DNA of 64,000 nucleotides. It comes from Sialis fuliginosa (lineage: Eukaryota; Arthropoda; Insecta; Megaloptera; Sialidae). The translations under genes and the position numbers were made by a program. A model generated the notes under the pieces. That model was not told where the DNA came from and did not search any database. It saw only the letters and a list, made by a program, of their open reading frames with translations. The DNA lies in the NCBI GenBank assembly GCA_961205875.1, contig OY540815.1, positions 19,901,638 to 19,965,637 on the forward strand, written 5' to 3'. Positions 40,509 to 54,952 of the stretch are shown piece after piece; the stretch's first letter is position 1; every line of letters begins with the position of its first letter.

Positions 40509-41431
40509 CTGAAAATATGAGATATTATCATAAAAAAATAATTATGCAGAAAAAAGTTCGAAAAAAAATATTTTTTTGAAAATTGATATTTTATTCATGT
40601 AGATAAAATCTTTTGCCATTCTAAATCCTTTTTTGCTCTAAAATTTGAGCTTTGGTGTTTGTTAGACGTTATTGAATTCTCGCCAACACCGTAGTTGTAA
40701 TTATTGCTAGTATTTTTGTCTCGTGAAATGTCGTGGACTCGCCCTATTAGAGCAATCAGATTTTTTTTACAAGAGAATTATAATATTTTCCACGTCTATT
40801 TACTCAATTTTCGAGCATCATGGCATCTCTGGCAAGTGCCCAGCTTAGGAAAAAATTAAAAAAGAAAAAAATACTAGATATGGGCCCACTGGCTCCATAC
40901 AGCTCTGGTCTAAATTATAATTGGTTAATACTGGACATCGATAACACATTAAAATTAAACTGGTTATTAACTTTCACAATGGGTTCTCATGATATTAAAT
41001 AAAAATTAATTTGGGGCTAAATTCAAGTTTAGTACGACAGTGATGAATTGCAATGTACCTATACCAGGTGAGTTTTTTATCTTGAGACTTTATTAAAATA
41101 AAAATAAAAAATTTTATGTAAAAAAAGAAAAATCAATTTAAAATATAAGTTTTTTTAAAAACTTTTCACTAAAAAGTTGTTTGTTTTTTTCTGCACAGAA
41201 ATAAATTGATTTCTATTTGAAAAAAAATGTTTGACCCAAAAATGACCTCAAAACCTCCACTCAACCATTGTTTTTTTCCCTTCAAACTCTGAAACTTTTG
41301 CATCAAACATTTTCTATGAAAATCCTTATTTTTCCAGTCTAAAAAAAAAAAAATATCCTGCTTTACCATGTGATCACATAGCCCATGGCCACTTGACTGT
41401 TAATAATTGTATACAGAATGTTTTTCAATAC
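40509..41431 (-). other. GPCR intron (TM7 exon to tail exon), 923 bp
   Basis: Donor GTATTG after codon AAG (41,431-41,430), acceptor TTTTCAG at 40,509. Phase 0. Low-complexity A/T-rich; small open frames inside (for example 60 codons at 40,820, plus) have no support. Confidence 0.8.
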
Positions 41432-41657
41432 CTTGATCTCTTGCATGCGCGATGCGTATATAATAGGGTTGGCCAATGTCTTCAGTATAGTAAGAGTGTT
41501 GTAGGTGACAGCGCCGAAAAAGAATAGCGTAATGTTGATGTCTTTGTTAGTGTATAGACAGTCTTCACACTTCAGAAGGAACACTACAACAGCTGGTATC
41601 CATCCCACCACGAACGAGCCCAAGATGAACAACGTGGTTTGGACGGCCTTTACGTTC
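41432..41657 (-). CDS. Class A GPCR, exon with TM6 and TM7
   Basis: Acceptor ctgtttacag precedes 41,657; the first base completes an Arg codon split with the previous exon, then NVKAVQTTLFILG begins TM6. Landmarks: F6.44, W6.48 and P6.50 in FVVGWIPA (Gly where most class A receptors have Cys 6.47). A Cys-containing third extracellular loop follows (KCEDC). TM7 ends LKTLANPIIYASRM, with the NPxxY motif intact as N-P-I-I-Y. The exon ends EIK, then donor GTATTG. The frame would read on 23 codons to a stop if unspliced, giving a tail lacking the cysteines. Confidence 0.93.
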
Positions 41658-41934
41658 CTGTAAACAGAACATTTCTGATTTAACGAACAGATAAAAATTA
41701 ATCTTCTCTTTATTATAAAGAAAGAAGTCCTGACATAGAAACGTGAAAAAATATGTATATACAAAGCTAGTTTATTATAAGAAACAGAAAAACATAAATG
41801 ATCAGTATTTTCTCCAATAAATATATATTATTTCGTTTGTAAGTCATTGGATCCATCAGATATTTTGTAGTCCAATAATATTTTATTCAAAAGTATTTAT
41901 TTAATATTAAATTCTAGTAGGATTCGTTATTTAA

Positions 41935-45854: not shown

Positions 45855-47862
45855 AATATAACATACATTAATATATGGATGTTATCAGCATTTTGGGGAT
45901 CCTATGTACAGTGTTGATTTTTTCATTCTATGGGGGTTAAAAAACATTTTTTTTATATCTCATCATTTTTGTTTTTGGGTTATCAATCTACAGGTCTGTA
46001 TACCAAATTTCATCTTAATAGTTATGTATATAAAAGAGAGAAAGAAGGCTGTGACATACATACATCAATTTTAGATAAAAATAAAATTTAAATTTTGATA
46101 TTCTTACTACAGTAAATGATTGGTTTAAGACCCCTTTGAAGGTGAAGAAATCAGGAAATTGATATGTCTACCCATAGTGTAACGGATCACTGAATATGTA
46201 GTAAAACTACTAGTTTGAGATATTGACATGTTACAGTATATGAAAAATAAAATTATTGAATGTGATATAGATGCAATTTGATTGGTGCAATCTATCTGTC
46301 ATTCAATTTTAAATTTATATTTATTATGTGCACAGTTGTCAATTTATCATTTCATTTTATGTTTCACAAACATGTAAGGGAATATTAACGAAAATTTGTA
46401 CCATTGTACTTACATATGAAAAATTGAAGGGATTTTTTATGAAAAAAAAATTGATAGCTTGGAATTTTTTCTTGGACACTGTTATGCACTAACGTATCAA
46501 CCCATAAAAATATTATTTTTGAGTTATGAATGCAGTGTCGGATCATTTAAAATGCATTTTGAATGATCGTTCTGTGACTATATTTAATAAAGGTGATTTA
46601 AATTTAATCTTTTCTTTTTAATAAAAAAGTACTAAGCGAGAGTTTACAAAAAACGATTACATTTAAATGCATTTACTTCAAAATATAAATAATTATAACA
46701 CATAATTTTCCCATAAAACATGCAATCCAGAATCGTTATCTGATTATTACATGAAAGAGATGATTATATAGAAATGAATATAATATTTCTATAGAATTAC
46801 CTTTTTATCTTATAAATTGAATAAAAATCTTATTAAGCAGAAGATGAAATTATCTGACGTCATTTAAATTTAATATTTATTCTGAAGCTATGTTAATTAA
46901 AATTAAAGCATTGATGTAAGTGACATTTAAATTTTGTAATTAAAATTAACTTTTACATAATGATAATCTGAATTTTAAACATTCGTTAAGTGGTTAAAAT
47001 TGCAGCTAGTAAAATTAATATAATAAAATAACTCACAATCAGATGGTAGCTCTGTTAAGTTTTATTTTACATTACTCAAATTATAGTCAATTTTGAAAAT
47101 AACATAACATTTTAAATAAGACATTGGTTTTTACAAACTGTCTCAGTTTTGCGGTGATTTACGAAGAAATTCAAATTAATTTAATCTATTCGGAATTTGG
47201 ATTTGTTTACTGTTATGTAACTAATTGACTTTTGAGTTAAAGTTTGTGCTTTATAATTAAAGTTACACTGTCTTCACCTGCAGGTTTTAGAATCTAGTTT
47301 CATAGTTACAGAACCCTTTGCCTTTGATATTCGCAACTGCTCTACTAAATATTGTATCTCGAGATTTTAGATACATATCTTTACTATTAAAATGATAACT
47401 TTCATGGTTGCGTTAGAAAGTGAGATTTATTACAATTTATTTGCTAAAGAATTGGTTATATTGATTTCACAAAAAAATAAAAAAACATCTGCCAAGTGAA
47501 TGCAAAAAAAAATTTGTTTCATTTTTTAGTCAAGTTAGTAAAGTACGTGTTACAATCAAATACATTGTATGGTATAGACTAAGTGAGCCATAACACTTTA
47601 TGTAAGTCAACATCAATCATAAATAAAATAAGAAAGAAAATATTGAGTATCTACGTGACGTGGACTGTCGATTCTGGAAGTATCTTTAATCCACAATCTT
47701 CTTATTTCTACCGAGAGTTATCGTTTTCGGCTGGCTCACTGTCTCTATATCATACAATCTGTTTGGTTACAATAATTAAATTATCTTTAGGTCTATGAAG
47801 TCGCGTATTATTTATTGCTACAATAAATTAAGAAAGCCAACATGCATGAGCCTTATGCGTAC
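45855..47862. other. Non-coding, GPCR intron; family B fragment
   Basis: 45,940-46,080 contains the reverse complement of the family B block (ggtctgtataccaaatttca, tcttaatagttatgtata, agaaggctgtgacat). The remainder is AT-rich. The 71-codon plus frame at 47,583 has no support. Confidence 0.5.
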
Positions 47863-48115
47863 TTATGACTGCATTTGTCGGCCTGGAAGCCGTCACCGGG
47901 CAACGCGGCGACGTAGATGAAGAAACACGCAATGGGGAAGAGCCACATCATCACCAGCATTACCGTCGTGTTACGACGCGTCATTGTGGACACGTAGTGC
48001 AACGGACGAAGGATCCCCAGGTAGTGATTTCCGGTTAGTGCTAGCAGGTGACACACAGTCACCAACATTCCGCTCAGACGGAACGTTTCTAGAGTCAAGT
48101 CGAAGCAATCCGAAC
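47863..48115 (-). CDS. Class A GPCR, exon with TM3, TM4 and second extracellular loop
   Basis: Acceptor tttgttccag precedes 48,115; the exon enters in phase 1 and leaves in phase 2 at donor GTACGC (47,862). It begins SDCFDLTLETF, then TM3 reaches the G-protein motif at ALTGNHYLGILRPLHY: the usual D-R-Y is N-H-Y here. The residue equivalent to 3.32, Asp in aminergic receptors, is Arg (ETFRLSG). So an amine ligand is unlikely if this alignment is right. TM4 carries W and P (MMWLFPIACFF). The loop ALPGDGFQADKCSHK holds the second-loop Cys. Exact family not recognised; I consider it an orphan class A receptor. Upstream TM1-TM2 exon(s), which must end in phase 1, were not found. Confidence 0.92.
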
Positions 48116-48228
48116 CTGGAACAAAATTGATATTATTTGCGAATTTAGCAGGTTTAACAAAATTTTGAAAAGTTTGAAATCACTTGTTTTTTAGGTTTTT
48201 TACACATGAAATTTTCATTGAATTTTCA
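48116..48228 (-). other. GPCR upstream intron, 3' end
   Basis: Carries the acceptor (TTGTTCCAG) for the TM3 exon. The family E element starts about 115 bp further upstream in gene sense. Confidence 0.6.
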
Positions 48229-52330: not shown

Positions 52331-52773
52331 GGACTTTTAAATGTTATAATAAAATAAAATAATTTAAAATTCTCATAAAAGAACGTGCCATACTCCGGGT
52401 TAAAACATGTCGAGTATCTAATTACATGCTCCACGAAAATGGAATTATGAATAGCTATATTTCATATTTTTCACAATTTCTGTCAATTACCGCAGGGTTT
52501 GCCGCCAGCCTCTGACAAACTCGTGTTTGTGTTCGAGCAGGATTTTGATTAGTGAATATTTCTGTCTCTGTTATTGATTTGTACAATGGTATCTCCGGTA
52601 TGTACGTTTTTAATTACAGTTTCTTTATTAGCGAAAGGTGTTGTTAATTTAGAACAAATTATAAAGCAGAACTATTTAGAAGCTAGACAGTATTCTCTTT
52701 GTTACAGATTTGTATAATAATAGGTATGTAAAGAAAGTCCACTGTGTAAAGTTTGTATAAAGAATACGATAAA
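52331..52773. other. Non-coding
   Basis: GC-richer patch at 52,490-52,560 (accgcagggtttgccgccag ... gttcgagcaggat) without recognisable coding. Otherwise AT-rich. Confidence 0.4.
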
Positions 52774-52974
52774 CAAACGAGAAAAAAAATGAAATTCCTC
52801 TATAAATTCGTTTCAACATATGTACATTGTACATATAAAAAAATCGATCGCACCAAGGATCGAACCCGGCCATTTACGATTGTTAGCCCGTAGCGCTAAC
52901 GACCGAACCACCTCTGGATAGGTACATATGTTTAAGCGAATTTACAGAGGAATTTCATAATTTTTTTCTCGTTT
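52774..52974 (-). mobile_element. tRNA-like core enclosed by inverted repeats
   Basis: Arms: 'acaaacgagaaaaaaaatga', aattcctctataaattcg, catatgtac (left) mirror gtacatatg, cgaatttacagaggaatt, 'tcataatttttttctcgttt' (right), about 50 bp each. Between them the minus strand carries a tRNA-like stretch (separate entry). About 200 bp in all. Flanking similarity may continue weakly outward. It looks like a non-autonomous element built around a Pol III-type promoter; I know no family name for it. Confidence 0.75.
52845..52918 (-). other. tRNA-like / tRNA-derived sequence
   Basis: Minus strand: an A-box-like TGGTTCGGTCGTTAGCG and a B-box GGGTTCGATCC at tRNA spacing (about 30 bp between). The T arm can fold as CCGGG-TTCGATC-CTTGG with two G-U pairs. 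The putative acceptor halves do not pair and no clean anticodon stem forms, so this is not a functional tRNA gene but a tRNA-derived (SINE-head-like) sequence. Confidence 0.7.
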
Positions 52975-54952
52975 GTATATGAGTTTTCCTTCAAACGGCT
53001 TGATATGTAGGTTTGTCTATGCCACTACTACGGTGCGACAAGGGTCTGGTGGTCCCCTTGTAAGACTTTTCAGCGCCACAGATAAAATATTTTTTGCACC
53101 CTTTAAGGTTATTTGCCTAGCACCCCGTAAGTTGTGAACTATCCATAAATTTTTAATAAAAAAAGATTTGATTTCGAAAAATTTAGTTTTTAATTTATAT
53201 GTAGAACACATATACCTACATTTAATAGAATTTTTTACTTTGTTAATAATTAAAATTAAAAAATTAAATATAATTTGGAGACCGCAGTAAATCTCATACA
53301 AAAGATTGTGCAGCTCACTATTTCTTTTCCACAGTACATTATAGACTATATCTTTAATATATATCTACTATGGCCTCGACAACTGTAATTTGTTGCACTT
53401 GCACACGTTGTTTCGCCGTACTCTATTACTTTTGCGGATGCGTCATTACCAACGCTGTCATGGTAGAGTGTTATTTTACTAGTTTGTCATTACTTTGAAT
53501 AAACCTGGTTCTGAAACTACACGTGAATGTATGTATGTATGTGTTTTATAGTATTGAAAAGGGTTGAAGTTTCGAATAATCAATGTTTTCAACGTTTCTG
53601 TATAGAATTTCTCTCACTGATGATGTTTTAAACACTCTATTTTTAATATCCAATTTTTAAAAACCATATGTCCAATATTAAAAAAAAATAGTAAAATATA
53701 TGATATATCTATCCACAAATAACATATTAAATTTTTAGACTTTTATCTATACATTGCTTTAACGATCGAATAACCTTAAAAACATCGAAATTAACTTTTT
53801 TTAACGAAAATGATTTATGTTGTAAATGGAACATTTTTTTAAACAGAATATGTATGTATAACAATCGATTTGTACAATAAACAGGATGCAGAAGTTTATT
53901 ACGGTACATAGGGATTGCATTGTTAATTCTGAAACATCCAAATATTTTTGCGGCTTTTTATTCCACCATGCGTTCTGTATACATGTAAGTAAATAAATAC
54001 TTATAAAATAAATAAATAAATAAATAATAAAATAAAATAATTCCCAGAACTGTAAAAAAATATATAAAACACATATAAATTTCCAGAAATGCGGAGTTTT
54101 TAAAATTATACATTGAATTAAAAAAAATAACAGTATTATCTCTTCATTTCAGATAATGCCCAGTTAAATTATAATTATGGTGGAGGCGCATTGCAATAAA
54201 ATTAAATCTAAGAAGAAGAATATTTATAATTTTTGATTTTTAAACAATTAAAAAGGTATATTTTATGTATTATTAATATGTCATGGTAACAACAAAATAA
54301 AGAAAATGCACATTTACTATACACAATAAACTCAAGTTAAAATTTCCTCGATTTTGGCAGTAGTGTTCACAAACAATCGATTGTATCTCGAGTTCTTTTT
54401 CGTAAAAAAAGTGTAGTAAATTTTTTATACAGTAGGTATATGTATAAAAAAGGTACAACAACGTATATTCAACTATACATTTGTAAACAAATGTAATGTA
54501 TGTACAAACATGTGTACATATATACAGAATTATATCCATATTCATTACTTGATAAAATAGAACACAGTAAATTAGCAATAAGAGCATTACATTTTTTCAT
54601 TGTTTTGCATTTACTGAATAGCTTCTAGGCGTTCTGGTTTCAAAACAAACAATGTATTAACAAAGTGGATAGAATAATTATTGTAAAATATAATACTGAT
54701 GCCTTGTTAGTATTTTTCTGGATAAAAAGTGTATTTTGCAATTAAGCTCTATAAAAGATAATTATGCTTTTTAAAAATTTCTGATAGAATAATTTAGTTT
54801 CAGTTGCACGTTTGTCAGACTATATTCCTACCTGTTAATGGTAACAAAAATAAAGAGTTGAGAACAAAAGGAAACACTTTATAAGTGAAACTGTAGTCAT
54901 ATCGTTGTAGGCATGCAGTCAACCATAGTTTCTCTTTGTACATAAACACTAG
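52975..54952. other. Non-coding; simple repeats
   Basis: Short (ATGT)n at 53,527-53,545 and (AAAT)n at 54,006-54,035. Open frames of 94 and 104 codons on the minus strand (53,301 and 54,587) are unsupported; the latter is low complexity rich in Tyr, Leu, Ile and Cys. Confidence 0.4.

Follow-up and report, generated by a model that had tools for sequence, protein, structure and literature searches.

Within the window, the 64,000-nucleotide stretch of Sialis fuliginosa DNA analysed here, positions 52769–53060 hold what survives of a repeat element, read as a left-truncated miniature inverted-repeat transposable element (MITE) and delimited by its match to the arm and core consensus of a genomic family. 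The sequence-only reading had described a 200-bp unit at this place; its inverted arms around a core are indeed there, but the unit is only the inner remnant of the larger element. The left arm is reduced to its inner 57 bp (52769–52825, plus strand; 91.5% identity with gaps allowed, E = 1.5e-18), equivalent to positions 110–168 of a 173-base family-arm query, and the outer 109 positions are gone. The tRNA-like core lies on the minus strand at 52844–52915 (91.7% identity to the core consensus) and comprises positions 1–72 of 95, the segment upstream of the A box being absent in this copy. The minus-strand A-box/B-box pair at tRNA spacing between inverted arms that the earlier reading had pointed out is present, with an A box-like sequence, TGGTTCGGTCG, at 52910–52900 and a B box, GGTTCGATCC, at 52866–52857 (44 nt from start to start). 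Directly after the core, a run of seven T residues (52837–52843, minus strand) may act as a Pol III terminator.

The right arm (52917–53060, minus strand) is internally shortened and keeps an intact terminus, ...GGTGGTCCCCTTG, which was also found by pattern matching at C7:19954669–19954697; its identity to the 173-base arm query is 83% with gaps allowed, taken over 52917–53064 with TAA-G included. The adjoining TAA (53061–53063) represents the TNA target duplication that is expected on the right-hand side. As the left copy was lost together with the left end, this TAA is all that the window copy has of its own duplication, and the rule comes from the family. The foldback itself is real, given that none of 200 dinucleotide shuffles folded as well as the natural sequence (z = −10.16); the perfect-looking inverted repeat of about 200 bp is nevertheless imperfect, its arms being 75% complementary over 75 nt without gaps. 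Elsewhere, the window contains rhodopsin-type GPCR exons (7tm_1) on the minus strand at 41363–41827 and 47853–48179, the second above the Pfam cut-off and the first below it.

A repeat family with arms and core together

The further copies asked for by the sequence-only reading proved to be plentiful. A search of the genome (392 Mb, 20 contigs) with the 246-bp region, in which 40 of 321 candidates were scored, placed the element at at least 40 sites, namely the window copy (self match, 100%) and 39 further relatives. Alignment of 55 distinct copies yielded a consensus that reads CTnA-CAAGGGGACCACCAGACCCTTGTCGCACC...CCTATC, an A-run, the core and a mirror arm ending in ...GGTGGTCCCCTTG-TnAG. 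Composed in full, this consensus element measures 442 bp, and its inverted arms of 169 bp each (CAAGGGGACCACC...) enclose a tRNA-like core that has an A box, a B box and a T-run; two-ended elements are mostly 334–481 bp long, with three longer ones. Genome-wide, 138 matches were obtained for a 29-base terminus pattern (up to 2 mismatches) and 135 for a 30-base core pattern (up to 3 mismatches), reversed controls giving 0 in both cases; these figures are pattern matches rather than counts of intact elements. The family thus has the inverted ends at fixed termini of a MITE, as judged from the 55-copy consensus and the 138 terminus matches, and, by its 442-bp length and copy counts, it is a short unit that occurs in many copies, presumably without a transposase.

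Whether core and arms belong together is judged most fairly on loci recruited by the core alone. For this sample, 36 loci not yet collected were picked by eye from the listed part of the 135 core-pattern matches; an arm lay beside the core in 36/36 and both arms were present in 23. A stand-alone core, sought with the core query, the core pattern and the 36 fetched loci, was not found: none of these cores was without an arm. Recruitment by the arms gave a similar picture, with a core match in 28 of 30 loci (29 elements, as L082 and L108 are one element), one of these over only 31 positions. The other two, L083 and L107, had no core match, with a few core bases of L107 still visible by eye. Across all routes, an arm adjoins the core in 121 of 122 cores (123 table rows, since the core of L164 is split in two), most of this pool being recruited by similarity to the element under study: 85 have both arms, 25 have one arm, 11 have the right arm with a sequence termed ‘bodyB’ on the left, and the truncated L111 has bodyB only.

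Selection against the proposed arrangement changed little. When 20 inner-arm ends were chosen by eye from 90 inner-arm matches for having no listed core beside them, core sequence was present in 18 (scores of 35–148 versus at most 23 in shuffles), and L180 and L192 lacked it. Short two-ended elements with shortened arms (L115–L118) kept the core in all four cases; a search pattern requiring inner arm ends in close succession hit 39 sites, by their look short palindromes. Against strict pairing count 12 cores in which one arm is replaced by another sequence. To the earlier question of whether core and arms always co-occur, the answer is that they do in nearly all copies examined, the exceptions being L083 and L107 without a core match, the two arm ends without a core and the truncated core L111 without an arm. 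The outcomes that would have spoken against a composite element, i.e. no other copy, cores in unrelated flanks or arms devoid of a core, are not the rule, and a MITE with a core between its arms is supported.

Target duplications and a probable transposase in trans

Target duplications outside the arms, which the sequence-only reading had proposed to look for, are indeed there. Among the 33 two-ended elements, 22 have the same 3-mer next to both termini and 11 do not, compared to a mean of 7.2 and a maximum of 17 identical pairs in 20,000 shuffles. Among the 22 elements with TNA on both sides, the two copies agree in 21, their left ends being 8 TTA, 8 TGA and 6 TAA, and the consensus insertion context is C-TNA-G. 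The family, if not the window copy with its missing left end, therefore carries a target duplication of fixed length. Longer duplications of 8–9 bp, suggested by L043 and a few other loci, gave a weak overall signal in a scan and were replaced by the TNA rule. Because identical TNA 3-mers flank 22/33 elements, we conclude that the element moves as a DNA transposon of the MITE type and not as a SINE. Defined ends, inverted arms, 3-bp TNA duplications, many copies and the joint presence of arms and core are all shown by the family.

The transposase is most likely supplied in trans, and from the type of target duplication our best guess at its source would be a PIF/Harbinger-like enzyme. The genome contains 146 matches to DDE_Tnp_4, which we take to be a PIF/Harbinger-type transposase domain; at the three DDE_Tnp_4 loci that were read, the termini of the element were not found. 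Widely spaced ends were considered as a possible longer autonomous partner and rejected, as these loci (L084, L090, L091, L096, L097, L103, L119) hold other inserted repeats. More generally, the arms or core of some copies contain insertions of other short repeats, mostly palindromic; one is common to L084 and L096 (92% over 225 bp) and another to L091 and L119 (88% over 645 bp). By eye, the inserts border on what look like TA targets, a Tc1-like fragment is visible in L090, and the flanks of L114 (C1:35553732–35554234) are mutually inverted, as if this copy lay in the loop of another foldback.

A longer form of the family carries two cores. In twelve cases the core adjoins bodyB where a left arm would be expected, and two palindromic bodyB elements, L064 and C6:4324172–4325321 (L113 with L200), have a core in each half. 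L064:1314–2227 (C7) has 906 bp between its termini and TGA on both sides; the C6 element was read without its left end. This two-core form is longer and rarer than the one-core form, and the cores bordering bodyB are in part more diverged (84–90%), others standing at 93–97%. An older two-core ancestor of the family is a plausible inference from these sequences. Other repeats match the centre of L064, with many on contigs C14 and C11; C14, which may be unusually repeat-rich, also has many of the 146 DDE_Tnp_4 matches.

Origin and fate of the tRNA-like core

Similarity of the core to tRNA was assessed against 20 of the genome's own tRNA genes. The core scored 54, at most 51 was reached in 1000 dinucleotide shuffles (0/1000 as good), and its reverse strand stayed at null level (34 versus a null mean of 36), so that the similarity is strand-specific; it spans 63–64 of 73 profile positions. 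The best match is tRNA-Ile(AAT) by z (5.47) and tRNA-Gly(GCC) by raw score. A profile built from the same 20 genes matches the window at 52850–52912 on the minus strand with an E-value of 5.2e-6 (five short sequences searched), and values of 5e-6 to 9e-6 were obtained for the consensus, the window copy and L056; more diverged cores are weak or null on this profile (L110, E = 0.007; L113, E = 0.45). A loose A box, for which there is no chance control, fits 111 of 121 cores, a strict B box fits 71, and 55 have both boxes at tRNA spacing; of the 71 with a strict B box, 69 have four or more T residues downstream. In having a tRNA-like segment equipped with both boxes, the core matches the head of a tRNA-derived SINE, the box counts having no chance control.

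Dedicated predictors tell a different story. ARAGORN, run on the core as the sequence-only reading had advised, returned 0 tRNAs, and with the Rfam tRNA model positions 52700–53050 of the window gave nothing at E ≤ 1 and 20 related loci nothing at E ≤ 10, meaning that neither sees a tRNA gene; the predicted fold of the core RNA is no cloverleaf and leaves the acceptor side unpaired by eye. Rfam miRNA matches in related loci (E = 1e-4) were discarded, lying far under gathering scores and reflecting the hairpin only. The core is thus tRNA-like by its resemblance to host tRNAs, yet it is no tRNA gene. Given the rejection by Rfam and ARAGORN and the weak scores of L110 and L113, its putative derivation from tRNA rests on sequence similarity and the boxes, with either a tRNA gene or a SINE head as the presumed donor. 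The earlier notion of a MITE that captured a tRNA is supported by fixed termini, 3-bp duplications and core/arm co-occurrence, the captured piece being tRNA-like and not recognisable as a tRNA gene.

Taken together, the window element is very probably a left-truncated, non-autonomous cut-and-paste MITE with long inverted arms and, at its centre, a tRNA-derived segment resembling a Pol III promoter. In the history that we propose, a tRNA gene or SINE head would have inserted into an ancestor of the family, whose inverted repeats were perhaps longer and held a core in each half; internal deletion may then have produced the short form, to be amplified by a transposase in trans, and in the time since both core and arms would have accumulated damage as passengers. 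From the core, Pol III could initiate transcription, which should stop at the T-run ahead of the second arm. Since the T-run precedes that arm, the predicted Pol III RNA should be short and not a hairpin, and a hairpin RNA of the whole element would need read-through transcription from outside. This anatomy disfavours the earlier suggestion of a single hairpin transcript made by Pol III.

Two other readings concern what the element is. The family could be a tRNA-head SINE whose foldback flanks are accidental and which multiplies through retroposition of its Pol III RNA, a view to which A and B boxes, tRNA-like sequence and a T-run after the core lend some appeal, as does the frequent loss of one arm, seen in the window copy and in 25/122 cores overall. 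A pair of fixed, inverted ends next to a 3-bp TNA duplication is foreign to such an element, however, its outer arms would lie outside any internal Pol III transcript, a T-run stands in place of an A-rich 3′ tail, and there were 0 stand-alone cores among the 36 fetched pattern matches, let alone stand-alone copies with a 3′ tail and long duplications of variable length; we therefore hold this to be exceedingly improbable. The related idea of a SINE that jumped into a foldback conflicts with the DNA-transposon target duplications of the copies and may still describe the first origin of the chimera. Alternatively, the centre might be an ordinary MITE spacer whose likeness to tRNA arose by chance, in keeping with the silence of Rfam and ARAGORN, the lack of a cloverleaf and the lesser tRNA-likeness of older cores; the strand-specific match over 63–64/73 positions, unequalled in 1000 shuffles and at null level on the reverse strand, makes this quite unlikely.

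A further reading gives the core a role of its own. It might be a working part, either because a bound Pol III complex keeps chromatin open or aids transposition, or with the arms as a source of dsRNA, and its retention in L115–L118 would fit, as would the fold of the composed consensus (−342.9 kcal/mol, no shuffle control) and a mariner MITE hairpin of Tupaia that is reported as an siRNA source (PMC4408798). Outside CpG, however, substitutions from the consensus average 5.7% for the core against 6.4% for the arms (75 two-armed copies; Wilcoxon p = 0.14), absolute values that are biased low as copies were recruited by similarity, so that these copies give no sign of constraint on a core that diverges like its arms. 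Only 71/121 cores keep a strict B box and only 55 have the two boxes tRNA-spaced; the two arms of a copy resemble one another about as much as arms taken from different copies (0.8802 versus 0.8796), which also gives no sign of gene conversion between arms. We consequently give a working core little credence, and it is equally doubtful that the DNA transposon gained fitness from a Pol III promoter, at first within each long repeat and later at the centre of the short form. Since core and arms have diverged to a similar degree, the core looks like a passenger, one that the family probably already carried at the time of its expansion and that has decayed along with the arms since.

Relation to known elements and implications

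Mariner elements duplicate TA, and the TNA duplication and 169-bp arms of the present family set it apart from the mariner-type MER6 considered below. PIF/Harbinger MITEs such as Tourist are small non-autonomous units with a classical TWA duplication. The family resembles them in its 3-bp T-N-A duplication within a short palindromic target, in its small non-autonomous unit and in residing in a genome with DDE_Tnp_4, and departs from the TWA rule in that TGA and TTA are equally frequent (8 each among 22 left ends). Capture of a Pol III promoter by an unrelated mobile element also has a parallel in Cassandra retrotransposons, whose LTRs contain a 5S-type Pol III promoter; here, in contrast, the carrier is a DNA transposon and the promoter is of the tRNA type.

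The closest precedent is MER6/MER6A, a Tc1/mariner MITE of mammals that contains part of a V-SINE (PMC6887750). Both families enclose a segment, SINE-derived in MER6 and tRNA-like here, between inverted ends, were amplified by DNA transposition and have no parents found beside them. MER6, however, took up the SINE body and tail to the exclusion of the tRNA head (PMC6887750), whereas the promoter-like tRNA head is what is carried here. As for RNA output, siRNAs were observed from MariN1 of Tupaia, a hairpin MITE (PMC4408798); the transcript of either element would fold on itself, here as predicted from sequence. Differences are that small RNAs are an observation in MariN1 and that the accessible part of its report (PMC4408798) mentions no tRNA-like core. 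Our literature search, with most subscription journals outside it, found no case closer than MER6 and none of four sequence strings of the element in any paper; the family may already be catalogued in repeat databases.

A damaged tRNA-like promoter copied many times within a MITE would be a new twist on a known theme. That a DNA transposon has amplified a promoter-bearing tRNA-like segment is well supported and forms the complement of MER6, in which only the SINE body was taken along. The two forms of the family, with a core in each half or a single central one, suggest a capture history that could be dated in related genomes. Copies of the element have carried potential Pol III sites to many places in this animal genome.
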